From: Nevskia sp.
Lineage (GTDB): Bacteria > Pseudomonadota > Gammaproteobacteria > Nevskiales > Nevskiaceae
Length of the DNA: 64,000 nt
Assembly: GCA_021732745.1 (NCBI GenBank)
Contig: JAKFUK010000002.1
Span: 434,001 to 498,000, forward strand
Reading direction: 5' to 3'
A program made the position numbers and the translations under genes. The notes below the pieces were generated by a model, which was not told the DNA's origin, did no database searches, and saw only the letters and a list, made by a program, of their open reading frames with translations. Below are positions 58,409 through 64,000 of the stretch, piece by piece; position 1 is the stretch's first letter, and each line of letters opens with the position of its first letter.

Positions 58409-60109
58409 GTGAACAACATCAATCAGTTTCTGCTCGAACAATCCGTCCCTGACGCCATCCGCGCCCGCCTGGCGGAGCACCTGATCAAGATTCGATGGGG
58501 CAGCCATGTCCGCATTCTCGTGGTGGTCGACGAGGACATTTCCACCAGCCCCGGCGTAGGATTCGGCATCAATCGAGTCATCGACCTGATCGACGGCGGC
58601 TCGGTCGGCTGCATGAGTTTCAACATCGACGTCGGCCTGCGCTCGCCCGGCACACCGACCATCATCGCCAGCCCTGCGGCTTTCCAGCCGAAATACACCG
58701 CCTTCCGTTTCGACATGAAGGACAGCGATGGCATCACGCCGGTGCTGGACCGGTATCAGCAGGTCTGGTGTTTCGGCTTCAACCCGGACAACTCGGGCGG
58801 GCCCGACAGCAACATCACCCAGGCTGGAGCCTTGCCGGCGACCAACGGCGAACTGAGTGCTTTGAGTCGCTGGATGGATGAAAAGAAAGGCGGCGTCTTT
58901 GCGACCGGAGATCACGATTACCTCGGCGCGTCGATGTGCCATCGCATCCCGCGGGTGCGCAACATGCGGCGCTGGACCAATGCGGATGGCGTGCCGCCGA
59001 TCGGCAGCCCGGATCGCATCGATACCTTGCGGCCGGGCACGCCGCCGCTGTCCAACAATATGCATCAGGGCGATGCCATCCCGCAGCCGATCCAGTGGAC
59101 GACCTGGGCCTCGGCCCGCACCGGCTGGTTCAGCCGCCGCCGCCGGCCTCATCCGGTGCTTTGCCACCCCGAACTGGGACCGATCGACGTGATGCCCGAT
59201 CACGCCCACGAGGGTCTGTGCTTCGATACTGACGAAGTCCGGCTCGATCGCAGCTACAACTGGACTGCCGCCGGCGGCTTCAGCGATAGCGGTGCAAAAC
59301 CTGAATTTCCGCCGACACCGGAAGGTCAGCCAACCCGGCCGCTGGTAATCGCCTATGGCAGCACCCTCGGCGACCCGCCGCAGGATTTCGCCAAGGGGCC
59401 GCAGCCGGCGCGCGCCAAGTTCCCGATGATCAGCGTCTATGACGGGCACGCCGCTCATGTTGGACGCGTGGCGGTGGATTCGACCTGGCACCACTGGATG
59501 AACGTCAACCTCGATGGCCTCGCGGCGGCTGGCGGCAGCAACTGGGAAAAGATCAGGCGCTACTTCCTCAATCTGGCGGTCTGGCTGTCACCGCCGGGCT
59601 ACTCGACGAAGTGCCTTTTCGATCATCTGGTGACCACGCAGCTCGGTTACGCCGGATTGCAGGAATACTCCGAGCGCCTGTCGACCATCGAACTGGGGGC
59701 CACTGCGCGCCCGGTGCTGCAGGCGATCTACGGCCCCTGCTGGGTGACGCAGTTCGTTCACGATCTGATGGTCGAGCTGAATCCGAAGCTGCGCGCGGAA
59801 CTGCTTGATCGCTATCTGGTGCCCGTCGGCGGCAAATCTCCGTGGCCGCCGCTGCCCGATCCCTGCCTGACCTGCCCGCCGCTGGACCTGATCGAAGATG
59901 CCGTGCTCGGCGGCCTCATCAAGGCCACGCGACCGGCCGTCCGCGAGTTTCGCGTGGCGATGAGCGGAGGCAAGGCGGTGCGCGGCAGCGGTCTGGAAGC
60001 CGTCCGCAAGCTGGCCGGACAAGGGGTCCGCAGCGGCATGGCCGAGCTGGGAGCGTTGTGGCAGGAATCGCTGAAGCATAGTCAGGCGACGGTCAAGCAT
60101 CTGCTGTAA
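58409..60109 (+). CDS. Large uncharacterised protein
   Basis: A 566-residue protein with no signal peptide or membrane segment. GGAG eight bases before supports the GTG start. The N-terminus reads RWGSHVRILVVVDEDIST, an alpha/beta-fold beginning. Middle blocks look conserved and catalytic: GGVFATGDHDYLGASMCHRIPRVRNMRRW and IDVMPDHAHEGLCFD, the latter rich in His, Asp and Glu. Later, SVYDGHAAHVGRVAVDSTWHHW also resembles a ligand-binding segment. The fold may be class I glutamine-amidotransferase or ThuA-like, but I do not recognise the family and propose no function. It stands alone between terminator-like hairpins. Confidence 0.85.
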   Translation: MNNINQFLLEQSVPDAIRARLAEHLIKIRWGSHVRILVVVDEDISTSPGVGFGINRVIDLIDGGSVGCMSFNIDVGLRSPGTPTIIASPAAFQPKYTAFRFDMKDSDGITPVLDRYQQVWCFGFNPDNSGGPDSNITQAGALPATNGELSALSRWMDEKKGGVFATGDHDYLGASMCHRIPRVRNMRRWTNADGVPPIGSPDRIDTLRPGTPPLSNNMHQGDAIPQPIQWTTWASARTGWFSRRRRPHPVLCHPELGPIDVMPDHAHEGLCFDTDEVRLDRSYNWTAAGGFSDSGAKPEFPPTPEGQPTRPLVIAYGSTLGDPPQDFAKGPQPARAKFPMISVYDGHAAHVGRVAVDSTWHHWMNVNLDGLAAAGGSNWEKIRRYFLNLAVWLSPPGYSTKCLFDHLVTTQLGYAGLQEYSERLSTIELGATARPVLQAIYGPCWVTQFVHDLMVELNPKLRAELLDRYLVPVGGKSPWPPLPDPCLTCPPLDLIEDAVLGGLIKATRPAVREFRVAMSGGKAVRGSGLEAVRKLAGQGVRSGMAELGALWQESLKHSQATVKHLL

Positions 60110-60213: not shown

Positions 60214-60702
60214 ATGCCAGCAAAAGCCCTGCGTGAGGCGCGTTCCTGTGGTCTGGCCTGCCTGCTGATCGTCTCGCCTGCGCAGGCCGCCGATATCCAC
60301 GATCTGCGTTGGCTGGCCGGCTGCTGGTCCGCGATCGGCGGCGATCCGGGCAGCGGCGAGCAATGGACCCTGCCCGCCGCCAACACCATGTTCGGCGTCA
60401 GCCGAACCGTCCGCAACGGCACGCTGCGCGAATTCGAGTACAGCCGTATCGCGCCACTCGAGGACGGGCGGCTGGCATTTCACGCCCAGCCCTCGGGGCA
60501 GCCGCCAACCGTGTTCCCGGTGCTGCGCCTGAGCGCCGATGAAGTCGTGTTCGAAGCGCTGGACCACGATTTTCCGCAGCGCGTGATCTACCGACAAACG
60601 CCGGAAGGGCTGCTCGCGGCGCGCATCGAAGGCCTGGTCGACGGCAGGCTCAAGGGCATCGACTTTCCGCTGCAAAGAGCACGTTGCGAGGCAAGCCCAT
60701 GA
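60214..60702 (+). CDS. DUF6265 family exported protein
   Basis: A 162-residue protein with a signal peptide cut after PAQA (about residue 25). The mature part is one lipocalin-like domain of the DUF6265 kind: LRWLAGCWSAIGGDPGSGEQWTLPAANTMFGVSRTVRNGTLREFEYSRI, followed by FHAQPSGQPPTVF. This family has many members in proteobacteria and bacteroidetes, but no function is established. The stop overlaps the start of the RNase gene (ATGA), so the two are co-translated. Confidence 0.82.
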   Translation: MPAKALREARSCGLACLLIVSPAQAADIHDLRWLAGCWSAIGGDPGSGEQWTLPAANTMFGVSRTVRNGTLREFEYSRIAPLEDGRLAFHAQPSGQPPTVFPVLRLSADEVVFEALDHDFPQRVIYRQTPEGLLAARIEGLVDGRLKGIDFPLQRARCEASP

Positions 60703-61334
60703 TCCGCACCGGTCTGCTGGTGGCGCTGCTGTCGCTTCTCGGCACAGCGCAGGCGAAAAACGATGCGCCGCGCGGCACGGCCGGCGTGTTCGATTACTAC
60801 GTGCTGAGCCTGTCCTGGTCGCCGGAATACTGCGCGACCACAAGGCGCGATGACGAACCGCAGTGCGCCCGGCCCTACGCCTTTGTCGCTCACGGCCTGT
60901 GGCCGCAGAACGAGCGCGGCTGGCCGGCGGATTGCACCAGCCGCGAGCGGGTGTCGGACGCGACCATCCAGCGCCTGCTGCCGATCATGCCGAGCAAGGG
61001 CCTGATCATTCACGAATGGCGCAAGCACGGCACTTGCAGCGGGCTCGGTGCCGATGCCTATTTCGCGGCACTGGAGCGCAGCTACCGCGCGATCCGCATT
61101 CCGGAACGCTTTCGCCTGCTGTCGGAAACGCTGTCAGTGCCCGCCAGCGACTTGCGCCGTGACCTGCTGGCGGCGAATCCTTCGATCACGGCCGAAGGGC
61201 TGGTGCTGCAATGCAGCGGCCGCTATCTGCAGGAAGTTCGCATTTGTCTGGATCGCCGTTTCGCGCCGCGCGCCTGCGGTGCCGATCTGCGCAACCGCTG
61301 CGGCGATCGGGTGGCGCTGAGGCCGGTGCGCTAG
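60699..61334 (+). CDS. Ribonuclease T2 family enzyme (RNase I-like), exported
   Basis: A 211-residue protein with an N-terminal signal peptide ending near AQA at residue 19. The two catalytic RNase T2 segments are present: HGLWPQ with His65, and HEWRKHGTC with His105, Glu106 and His110. Several cysteines flank them, as expected of a periplasmic enzyme. It would cleave single-stranded RNA without base preference via a 2',3'-cyclic phosphate, as E. coli RNase I does. It overlaps the DUF6265 gene by four bases. Phosphate scavenging is a possible role but no Pho box was seen here. Confidence 0.93.
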   Translation: MIRTGLLVALLSLLGTAQAKNDAPRGTAGVFDYYVLSLSWSPEYCATTRRDDEPQCARPYAFVAHGLWPQNERGWPADCTSRERVSDATIQRLLPIMPSKGLIIHEWRKHGTCSGLGADAYFAALERSYRAIRIPERFRLLSETLSVPASDLRRDLLAANPSITAEGLVLQCSGRYLQEVRICLDRRFAPRACGADLRNRCGDRVALRPVR

Positions 61335-61344
61335 ACGCGGCGCG

Positions 61345-62541
61345 TCAGACCCGGTGCAGCTCGGCGACGGCAGTCGGCGCGCGCTGCTTCGGCACGGTGA
61401 CCGGCAGACGTAGCTGGAATTGCGTGCCGCTGTCGTCGGAGGTCGCGTGGATGGTGCCGCCGTGGTATTCGGCGATCTTGCGGCAGATCGCCAGACCGAT
61501 GCCGGTGCCGTCGTAATCGTCCGGGCCGTGCAGGCGGCGGAAGATCGCGAACACGGCGTCGAGCTGGTCCGCCGGAATGCCGATGCCGTTGTCGGCCATG
61601 GTCAGTTGCCAGAAATCGCCGTCGCGGTCGATGTCGATGCGAACTTTGGGACGCTCGCCGGGCTTCTGGAACTTGATGGCGTTGTCGAGCAGGTTGTGCA
61701 GCAATTGCACCAGCAGGCCGTGGTTGGCTTCGACTTCCGGCAAGGTGCCGAACGCGATTTCGGCGCCGGTCTTGTCGATGCTCGTCTTCAGACCCTTGAT
61801 CGCCTTGGTCAGGGTTTCCGCCAGCGGTTTGCGCTCCACACTCGCCGCATCGCTGCGCCCGACGCGGGACAGGGCCAAGAGATCCTGGATCAGCTGCTGC
61901 ATCTGCCGCGCGCCCTTGTCGATGTAGTCGAGAAACTCCAGCGCGTCGCCGTCCAGCTTGTCGCGATGGCGGCGGTTGAGCAGTTGCGAAAAGCCGGAAA
62001 TGGTACGCAACGGGGCTTGCAGATCGTGCGAGGTGATATAGGCGAACTGTTCCAGTTCCTTGACCGCGCGGTTCATGTTGGCCAGCGAGCGGCGCATCTC
62101 TTCCTCCGCCAGCTCGCGTGACGTGATTTCCTCGCGCAGCCGCTGGTTGGCTTCGGCCAGTTCTTCCGGCGAACGCATCGCCAGCAGCTTCGGCACCAGC
62201 GGAATGATGGCGATGGCGGTGGCCAGCGATACCCCGGCGGTGATCGCTTTTTCGATGCCCTGCAGGTAGTAGATCGGCAGCCAGACGGTGATGATGCCGA
62301 CGATGTGGCTCAGGCCGCAGAGCACGATGAACGCGGCGAACAGGCCCACGGCCCAGCCGAACGACAGCGGCTGGCGGCGGCGGCGAATGAAGTACAGCAA
62401 GGCCGCCGGAATCATGAAGTACGCGATCGCGATGACCGCGTCGGAGGCGACGTGCAGCCAGATCAGGTCCGGCCGCAGCTGGAAGCACACCCCGTGGGGC
62501 AGCAAGCCGGCCCCGGCACCAGAGAACAGGTTGGCGAACAT
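61345..62541 (-). CDS. Sensor histidine kinase with ethylene-receptor-like membrane sensor domain
   Basis: A 398-residue kinase. The N-terminal domain has three membrane helices (about 28-52, 63-85 and 92-118). It carries DAVIAIAYFMIP with Asp34, Tyr41 and Pro45, and FIVLCGLSHI with Cys75 and His79. In plant ETR1 the matching Asp25, Tyr32, Pro36, Cys65 and His69 bind copper and ethylene. A linker coiled coil precedes the kinase core: H-box FAYITSHDLQAPLR (His172), N-box HNLLDNAIKF, DNGIGIP and GTGIGLAICRK. The ATG at 62541 lies eight bases after the upstream regulator gene, so they share an operon. No receiver domain is attached. Confidence 0.9.
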   Translation of the reverse strand: MFANLFSGAGAGLLPHGVCFQLRPDLIWLHVASDAVIAIAYFMIPAALLYFIRRRRQPLSFGWAVGLFAAFIVLCGLSHIVGIITVWLPIYYLQGIEKAITAGVSLATAIAIIPLVPKLLAMRSPEELAEANQRLREEITSRELAEEEMRRSLANMNRAVKELEQFAYITSHDLQAPLRTISGFSQLLNRRHRDKLDGDALEFLDYIDKGARQMQQLIQDLLALSRVGRSDAASVERKPLAETLTKAIKGLKTSIDKTGAEIAFGTLPEVEANHGLLVQLLHNLLDNAIKFQKPGERPKVRIDIDRDGDFWQLTMADNGIGIPADQLDAVFAIFRRLHGPDDYDGTGIGLAICRKIAEYHGGTIHATSDDSGTQFQLRLPVTVPKQRAPTAVAELHRV

Positions 62542-62549
62542 CGCCGCAT

Positions 62550-64000
62550 TCAACCGTCGGCGCGCAGGCCTTGCGGCCAGAACGCCTGAAGCTCGGCGGC
62601 CGTCAATGCCGGACACAGCGCATCGCCTTGCAGGTAGCGGGCACCGAGGGTGATCAGCAGATCGCGCCGGGCGCTGTCATCGACGCCGCAGGCGATCAGA
62701 TCGAGACTCAGATTCATCGCCACGCCGATGGCGGCGATCACCGAGCGGCGCAGACTGCCGCCGACCCGGTCGACCGGCAGCATCGCGATCGACTGCCGGC
62801 CGAGCTTCACGGCATCGAGCGGCACGGCGGTGACGGCCAGCAGGCTGTCCGCAGCAGTGAGGAAATCGTCGAGCGTGATGCCATAGCCTTCGTCGCGAAG
62901 CTGGCGCAGGCGCGCGAGCAGGTCCGGCGTGGCATCAGCCAGCTCGGCAGCGCTGATTTCCAGACGCAGATCGCGCGGCTCGATATGGCGAGCCGCCAGT
63001 TCGCGGCCAAGAAAGGACAGCAGATCCGGCTGATCGAGCAATACCTGATCGAGCTTCAGTCCCAGCGACGGCACGCGCAACCCCGCCGCGCGCCAGCCGC
63101 TGAAGCGTTGCAGGGCGACGCTGATCATGGCGAATCCAGCTTCGCGGCGACTTTCCGGGCCGGTGCCGCGCCAGGCGATCAGATCATCCCGCGACCACTG
63201 CGCCGTGACGCCGATCGGCAGGCTTTCGCGGGCGTCGTACCAAGGCTGGTAAAGCAGTTCGATGCGGTCCAGCGGCGTGCCCTGCCAGCGCTCGGCAAGG
63301 TCGGCGGCGGACAGCGCCGGCAGCAACTCGCGGCCTTCGTACTGGCAGACGCCGCCGCCGACGCGATGCGCGCGGAACATCGCCTGCTCGGCGTGTTCGA
63401 GCAGTTCGCCCAGCGCATCGCCATCGCGCGGATAGATGGCGATGCCGATATGCGGCGTCAGGCGGGTGCCGGGCACTTCGAGGCTGCGCAGCATTTCATC
63501 GAAGCGACGGGCAACGGTCATGGCGTCGAAGCTGGCATCGGTCGGTGCCAGCAGCACCGAAAACTCGCCGCGCGCCATCGCCGCCACGGTGTCCGATTTG
63601 CGCAGGCATTCGTCGAGTGCGGTGCCGATGCGGCGCAGGGCGATGTCCATTTCCAGACTGCTGGCACCGCTCAAGGCGGCCGGCAGGCCGTCGAAACCGA
63701 TCGACAGGATGCCGACGCCGACACCGCTGCGTTCGGCCTGGGCCAAGGCCCGCGCAGCGCGATCCTCGAACAGCGGACGGTTGGGCAAGCCGCTGACCGG
63801 ATCGTGGCTGGCGCGAACAAAAGATTCCGCTTTCGCGGCATTGAGCTGCGCAAGCTGGCGATGATGCTGCACTGCAAAGCGGATGCGGCGCAGCAACAGG
63901 CCTGCGTCATAGCGGCCCTTGACCAGATAGTCCTGCACGCCGAGCCGCATGGTCTGCTGCGCCATGTCGTCGCTGTCGTGGCCGGTGAGCACGATCATCG
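62550..64000 (-). CDS. REC-GGDEF-EAL domain protein, degenerate (5' end outside the window)
   Basis: The 5' part of this minus-strand gene lies beyond the window edge. Visible residues begin inside a receiver domain (TGHDSDDMAQQTMRLGVQDYLVKG, including the conserved Lys) and miss the phosphorylated Asp. A GGDEF domain follows with ARGEFSVLL in place of GGDEF. An EAL-type domain has YQPW but no EAL motif (AQWSRDDL instead) and only parts of the catalytic set (LEISAAEL, TLDDF). Both enzymatic sites therefore look inactive, suggesting c-di-GMP binding or protein-protein control. It is encoded just before the ethylene-receptor-like kinase and is its likely partner. Confidence 0.87.
   Translation of the reverse strand, partial: MIVLTGHDSDDMAQQTMRLGVQDYLVKGRYDAGLLLRRIRFAVQHHRQLAQLNAAKAESFVRASHDPVSGLPNRPLFEDRAARALAQAERSGVGVGILSIGFDGLPAALSGASSLEMDIALRRIGTALDECLRKSDTVAAMARGEFSVLLAPTDASFDAMTVARRFDEMLRSLEVPGTRLTPHIGIAIYPRDGDALGELLEHAEQAMFRAHRVGGGVCQYEGRELLPALSAADLAERWQGTPLDRIELLYQPWYDARESLPIGVTAQWSRDDLIAWRGTGPESRREAGFAMISVALQRFSGWRAAGLRVPSLGLKLDQVLLDQPDLLSFLGRELAARHIEPRDLRLEISAAELADATPDLLARLRQLRDEGYGITLDDFLTAADSLLAVTAVPLDAVKLGRQSIAMLPVDRVGGSLRRSVIAAIGVAMNLSLDLIACGVDDSARRDLLITLGARYLQGDALCPALTAAELQAFWPQGLRADG

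Follow-up and report, generated by a model that had tools for sequence, protein, structure and literature searches.

An ethylene-receptor-type histidine kinase of Nevskia sp. and the gene neighbourhood of its relatives

The stretch of Nevskia sp. DNA analysed here, 64,000 nucleotides long and referred to as the window (C2:434001-498000 of a 4.0 Mb genome in six contigs that is 91% complete), encodes a histidine kinase that is a bacterial member of the known ethylene receptor family and a good further example of it (Table 1). Judged from its sequence, this protein is probably a copper-dependent ethylene sensor. The mode of action that we consider likely is one in which Cu(I) and ethylene, or a similar small alkene, would be bound by the N-terminal ethylene-binding domain (EBD) and phosphate would pass to a free receiver protein encoded close by. 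The gene converges with one for a Ribonuclease T2 family protein (Pfam; 60684-61334, plus strand). Further along, a 566-residue protein that has no Pfam match at E <= 0.001 (58409-60109, plus strand) is encoded between a gene with PEP-synthase/PPDK-type domains and a DUF6265 gene.

Table 1. Features of the EBD-kinase gene, its product and the adjoining partner gene, in window coordinates
Feature	Position	Strand	Basis
EBD-histidine kinase, 398 aa	61345..62541	-	ORF translated from ATG; start 8 bases past the stop codon of the upstream gene
Ethylene-binding domain (EBD), residues 26-122	62176..62466	-	Pfam PF25487 ETR1_N, E 4.4e-35
HisKA dimerisation and phospho-acceptor domain, residues 163-227	61861..62055	-	Pfam
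HATPase_c domain, residues 276-382	61396..61716	-	Pfam
Copper-ligand pair Cys75 and His79 (CGLSH)	62305..62319	-	Aligned with C75/H79 of AzoEtr1 and with relatives
PHGxC motif, Pro15-His16-Gly17-Val18-Cys19	62485..62499	-	Opens the short predicted helix 15-22, ahead of the first long helix
Upstream partner gene: half receiver (second half), degenerate GGDEF (ARGEF), degenerate EAL	62550..64000, past window end	-	Pfam GGDEF and EAL; frames; motifs

The preliminary description of this DNA had interpreted the protein as a sensor kinase of the ethylene receptor type, and the present sequence analysis supports that interpretation. Specifically, a profile search with residues 1-120 returned the ethylene receptor family; the ETR1_N match scores 120.3 bits against a cut-off of 27 and spans profile positions 2-97 of 97, which is the whole domain. 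This match rules out a chance resemblance of residues as well as membership of another membrane sensor family. In an AlphaFold2 model of sensor residues 1-130 (mean pLDDT 81.7), long helices are predicted at 24-54, 62-87 and 91-120 and a short one at 15-22, and by this model the kinase would have the three transmembrane helices of the ETR1_N family. The sensor is connected to the HisKA and HATPase_c part through a short linker. When the sensor domain was searched against solved structures, no match appeared at E <= 10, and a Foldseek comparison of the predicted sensor model with the PDB gave none among 112 hits at E <= 0.001. Plant ethylene receptors contain a GAF domain. The window kinase has no Pfam match to GAF or PAS at E <= 0.001, and it thus lacks the GAF between sensor and kinase that marks the plant-type (ETR1/ERS1) subfamily.

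Six residues had been named as shared with ETR1 (Asp34, Tyr41, Ile44, Pro45, Cys75 and His79), and all are present in the translated reading frame and in the alignment exactly as numbered, with the proposed distance of 30 from Pro45 to Cys75. Two more are kept, Ile72 (ETR1 Ile62) and Lys98 (ETR1 Lys91). All seven ethylene-binding residues of ETR1 are thereby matched (D34, Y41, I44, P45, I72, C75 and H79), where Tyr32 of ETR1 is presumably the counterpart of Tyr41. For the others, D25, C65, H69 and K91 of ETR1 correspond to D35, C75, H79 and K98 of AzoEtr1 from Azospirillum (PMC11819568), and I35, P36 and I62 follow published ETR1 numbering (PMC6586836). Modelling work that is cited in the former source predicts that Lys91 of ETR1 pairs with Asp25 (PMC11819568).

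The preliminary description was thus right about residues and family, and its title overstated the novelty that it implied, because predicted ethylene receptors of proteobacteria are already in print (PMC11819568; PMC7700396). These publications, together with our genome surveys, rule out that the EBD is rare or new in proteobacteria. PF25487 exceeded its cut-off in 40 of 61 genomes comprising the source genome and its relatives, in 55 of 85 genomes of the order, in 12 of 369 genomes spread over the class (16 at E <= 0.001) and in 31 of 397 spread over the phylum (33 at E <= 0.001); none of the 14 control genomes in each of the four surveys had it. Among the best 80 of 317 loci, which were retained as relatives, EBDs occur, for example, in Solimonas, Hydrocarboniphaga, Panacagrimonas, Novosphingobium, Bradyrhizobium, many cyanobacteria and one Terriglobia bacterium. 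A literature search for ethylene with Nevskia gave no receptor title among the matches listed.

To compare these domains we used an alignment of 35 of the 43 EBDs then available, the window's own counted (A1), and one of 73 rows (A3) that holds the window and 72 of the 80 loci (without L093, L095, L098, L099, L104, L108, L110 and L111). Residues were tabulated for 155 distinct EBDs, obtained from 191 hits by removing duplicates and leaving aside G048 (locus L005) and the fragment G029:C169; L196 was skipped since its wider copy L205 was included. Output and neighbour domains were called with locally built profiles and not with Pfam, and for this reason the 18 rows listed as 'none' are uncalled rather than domainless. 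Within the order, 59 of 61 EBD places were examined, yielding 28 distinct EBD-kinases, 28 EBD-GGDEF proteins and three uncalled cases.

The EBD-GGDEF fusions are the second large class in the order (28 of 59 places), and in them the counterpart of ETR1 Asp25 is often Asn or His while Cys75 and His79 are kept. They include L028, L030, L034, L035, L038, L040, L047, L050-L053, L055-L058, L061, L063, L064, L188 and L189, the last two being part of the 28; the L034 fusion also matches PAS and GAF in Pfam. We make no claim that such fusions are new to the literature. Asp34 is kept in 99 of 103 EBDs of the histidine kinase type and in 11 of 34 fused to GGDEF, where the remaining residues are Asn (10), His (9), Ser (3) and Glu (1). 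When a conserved Asp of the ETR1 membrane domain is changed to Asn, the receptor still works and binding is about 100-fold weaker, according to a review (PMC13012798) that gives this Asp no number and in which we take it to be Asp25. The family supplies natural variants of an affinity-setting Asp, and of the copper site described below, that are ready for assay.

Asp34 also varies together with Lys98. With one row gapped at position 34 set aside, an acid at 34 and Lys or Arg at 98 occur together in 123 EBDs, the acid alone in 5, the base alone in 4 and neither in 22; within the GGDEF class the corresponding counts are 10, 2, 4 and 18. Column 98 ranks first in a test of Lys/Arg against Asp34, with columns 92 and 55 nearly as strong, and column 30 stands above it in a test of majority residues. 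Because these columns rival column 98, a background from relatedness is visible. On the tree, six supported independent pairs bear on Asp34 and Lys98, of which three change both and none in the opposite sense, a result that is not significant given relatedness. Output class (histidine kinase or GGDEF) has two supported pairs with Asp34 and gains no support from them (median p 1). We therefore reject the association of Asp34, and likewise that of Cys19 discussed next, as proven, since neither is significant once relatedness is allowed for on the tree. The covariation fits the proposed Asp-Lys pair and does not prove it.

The PHGxC motif ahead of the first long helix shows roughly the same degree of conservation as the copper ligands. 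In the 73-row alignment there is no variation at P15 or H16, and G17 and C19 are at least 90% conserved; AzoEtr1 also carries the motif, as PHGVC. Among 153 EBDs, two rows gapped at position 19 having been omitted, 145 have both Cys19 and the Cys75/His79 pair, six have neither, one has Cys19 alone and one the copper pair alone; expressed otherwise, six of the seven EBDs without Cys19 also lack Cys75 or His79. Counted on the tree from Cys19, five pairs are informative, three changing both and two changing Cys19 alone; counted from the copper pair there are three, about three of which change both. Neither count includes an opposite case, and p is about 0.25. Among the matches listed in a literature search, those on bacterial ethylene receptors contained no 'PHG', and we do not claim that PHGxC is unreported. 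An altered copper site, with His79 replaced by Tyr or Arg or Cys75 by Ser or Ala, is seen in L037, L042 (genus g9), L064, L170, L171, L179 and L180, all of which except L170 also lack the Cys of PHGxC. These EBDs may belong to ethylene-blind paralogues or to sensors of something else.

We infer that PHGxC lies on the periplasmic side and may help to load copper. The copper of plant receptors comes from the pump RAN1 (PMC12586476). In the source genome, at 91% completeness, no copper P-type ATPase exceeds the cut-off (one partial match, 29 bits against 397), and no E1-E2 ATPase domain was matched there, a domain that all 14 control genomes have. A 4 Mb proteobacterium without an E1-E2 P-type ATPase is odd, or else reflects an assembly gap. 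Three further EBD-bearing genomes of the order (G032, G042 and G045) have no match to the copper pump family. The missing pumps are in keeping with copper loading through PHGxC, and incompleteness of the genomes could explain them; the pump exceeds its cut-off in 69 of 85 genomes of the order, which counts against pump-free loading by the motif.

The same observations bear on the strongest alternative to ethylene sensing, that the domain responds to Cu(I) as its signal and binds ethylene incidentally or not at all. Such a copper sensor would account for the near invariance of the ligands (Cys75 and His79 are both present in 146 of 153 EBDs), for the variation among GGDEF fusions of Asp34, the determinant of ethylene affinity in ETR1 (PMC13012798), and for the absence of a CopA-type pump over the cut-off from the source genome. 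We nevertheless regard it as unlikely. The window kinase keeps Asp34 and Lys98, which are not obviously needed for sensing copper alone; no copper-handling protein was found among those neighbouring proteins that were scanned with Pfam; and the related AzoEtr1 both binds and responds to ethylene (PMC11819568).

The genes beside the kinase suggest where its signal may go. It had been noted earlier that the protein contains no GAF or receiver domain, and this holds for the protein itself (E <= 0.001), but a free receiver gene and a REC-GGDEF-EAL gene lie directly upstream. The GGDEF-EAL partner gene stops 8 bases ahead of the kinase start on the same minus strand. The first half of its receiver, and the free receiver protein (L002:8288-8791; a full receiver match, Pfam Response_reg E 1e-18), are encoded just past the window end, so that the HisKA and HATPase_c domains and a receiver are all encoded here for a putative phosphotransfer. 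Within the receiver half, the coding sequence of the partner gene is distributed over two frames (window 63966-64000 and beyond, L002:7967-8063), and the break falls somewhere from about 64001 to 64012, where the window ends. The partner gene also reads ARGEF for GGDEF, VTAQ for the EAL motif and DDFLTA for DDFGTG, and hence lacks the motifs of an active diguanylate cyclase or c-di-GMP phosphodiesterase.

This arrangement, an apparent operon that ends with the kinase gene, recurs. The gene order receiver, REC-(GGDEF-)EAL, kinase is found in 20 of the 28 distinct EBD-kinases of the order (19 and L191/L207), a receiver alone lies upstream in six, and two (L026 and L059) have neither gene. The middle gene encodes REC-GGDEF-EAL in 18 of the 20 and REC-EAL in two. 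Eleven of the 20 have an intact GGDEF signature (among them those of Solimonas fluminis, Hydrocarboniphaga effusa and H. daqingensis, which are culturable), in seven it is altered (the window's among them) and in two it is missing with its domain, and the DDFGTG motif of EAL is intact in none of the 20. For this reason the middle gene, in just over half of the 20, resembles by its signature motifs a diguanylate cyclase of the response-regulator type whose EAL domain is dead. Outside the order, where neighbour counts are lower bounds because many loci have short flanks, a same-strand receiver-type gene lies within 300 bases of at least 27 of 75 EBD-kinases, and at least four of the 75 have a gene with GGDEF or EAL no more than 2.5 kb away; a receiver-type neighbour is present in 20 of the 42 that are flanked on either side by more than 1 kb of sequence. 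In 23 of those 27 the receiver gene is downstream, as in Azospirillum. Elsewhere, the EBD genes of L045 and L060 adjoin a receiver gene and two kinase genes, and the product of L045:5980-7194 has an EBD followed by about 270 residues that have no Pfam match.

Within the genus the operon is less complete, and a second alternative is that the receptor is decaying, the operon degenerating and the kinase being left without an output. Nine EBD-kinases of the genus were compared. Three keep the middle gene (the window's, L029 and L033), all with an altered GGDEF motif, and of the remaining six, five have a receiver only (L041, L043, L046, L048 and L049) and one has neither gene (L059). These losses, with the broken receiver frame and the altered GGDEF and EAL motifs of the window's partner gene, are what decay would produce. 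The kinase gene itself is intact, however, with HisKA, HATPase_c and every sensor residue in place, and the free receiver is complete. Furthermore, the frame break may be either a mutation or an assembly error; L029 and L033 are open across the same stretch. Decay of the receptor thus seems improbable to us, slightly more so than a copper sensor.

A third alternative is another small ligand in the same site, such as CO, acetylene, another alkene, or oxygen acting through Cu(I); CO and alkenes other than ethylene are ligands of Cu(I) sites, and such ligands are indistinguishable from an alignment. This is the least probable of the three, since the bacterial members whose published tests we consulted were tested with ethylene and bound it or answered it (PMC11819568; PMC6682694).

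For the likely reading, ethylene sensing by a receptor-family kinase with a free receiver as its partner, the steps would be as follows. The sensor domain would form a dimer in the inner membrane, its N-terminus facing outwards, Cys75 and His79 would hold Cu(I) with Asp34 adjacent, and ethylene or a similar small alkene would bind there. The altered copper coordination, aided by an Asp34-Lys98 pair joining helix 1 to helix 3, would change the kinase, with the signal passing via helix 3, and the free receiver protein would accept the phosphate. Where relatives have retained the middle gene (20 of 28), the receiver that it encodes would offer a second phosphate target, and where the GGDEF signature of that gene is intact (11 of 20), ethylene could set c-di-GMP levels. 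In the lineage of the window the c-di-GMP branch looks eroded, and for this reason the output still at work there is probably the free receiver. Against this explanation stand the lack of a good match among solved structures and the lack, in the source genome, of a copper pump over the cut-off, of an E1-E2 ATPase domain match and of a match to ACC deaminase; the plant receptors have RAN1 as their copper supply.

For the Nevskiales as a whole, we put forward a tentative and less probable extension. The operon (kinase to REC-GGDEF with a dead EAL) and the EBD-GGDEF fusions, often with Asn or His at position 34, might together form a direct ethylene-to-c-di-GMP circuit with two sensitivities, in which PHGxC might capture periplasmic copper and load Cys75 and His79 without a RAN1-like pump. 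Taken alone, the window kinase adds one further member to the predicted ethylene receptors of bacteria; its genomic context is more useful, and what most deserves to be followed up is the operon that recurs in the order, together with the variants at Asp34.

The plant receptors ETR1 and ERS1 have the seven ethylene-binding residues and the Asp-Lys pair in common with the window kinase. They differ in that their N-terminal Cys4 and Cys6 form dimer disulfides in a model (PMC6586836), where bacterial EBDs have PHGxC, in that they signal through CTR1 (PMC7700396) and in that RAN1 supplies their copper (PMC12586476). SynEtr1 of Synechocystis and GeiEtr1 and GeiEtr2 of Geitlerinema likewise have an N-terminal EBD and a C-terminal kinase; unlike the window kinase, they carry GAF or cyanobacteriochrome domains (PMC6682694). 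The gene for GeiEtr2 is grouped with one for a diguanylate cyclase (PMC6682694).

The closest characterised relative that we found is AzoEtr1, which is 47% identical to the window kinase over 136 residues. We take the 525-residue protein encoded at locus L218 of Azospirillum brasilense Sp7 to be AzoEtr1 because its D35, C75, H79 and K98 match the residue numbers in the paper (PMC11819568). Both proteins have ETR1_N with the same seven residues, K98, a PHGVC sequence, HisKA and HATPase_c, and an adjoining receiver gene. AzoEtr1 differs in that a PAS domain separates its sensor from its kinase and its receiver gene lies downstream, whereas the window kinase has no PAS match and has the receiver and REC-GGDEF-EAL genes upstream. 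Residues 1-130 of AzoEtr1 bind labelled ethylene in yeast, and disruption of its gene leaves cells with little or no ethylene binding (PMC11819568). In Azospirillum, ethylene lowers c-di-GMP, an effect that the same study recorded and could not explain (PMC11819568). The recurring operon fits both this drop and the cyclase gene grouped with GeiEtr2. Together with the EBD-GGDEF fusions, it suggests a route from ethylene receptor to c-di-GMP, and the direct circuit, if it exists, would supply the link left open in Azospirillum.
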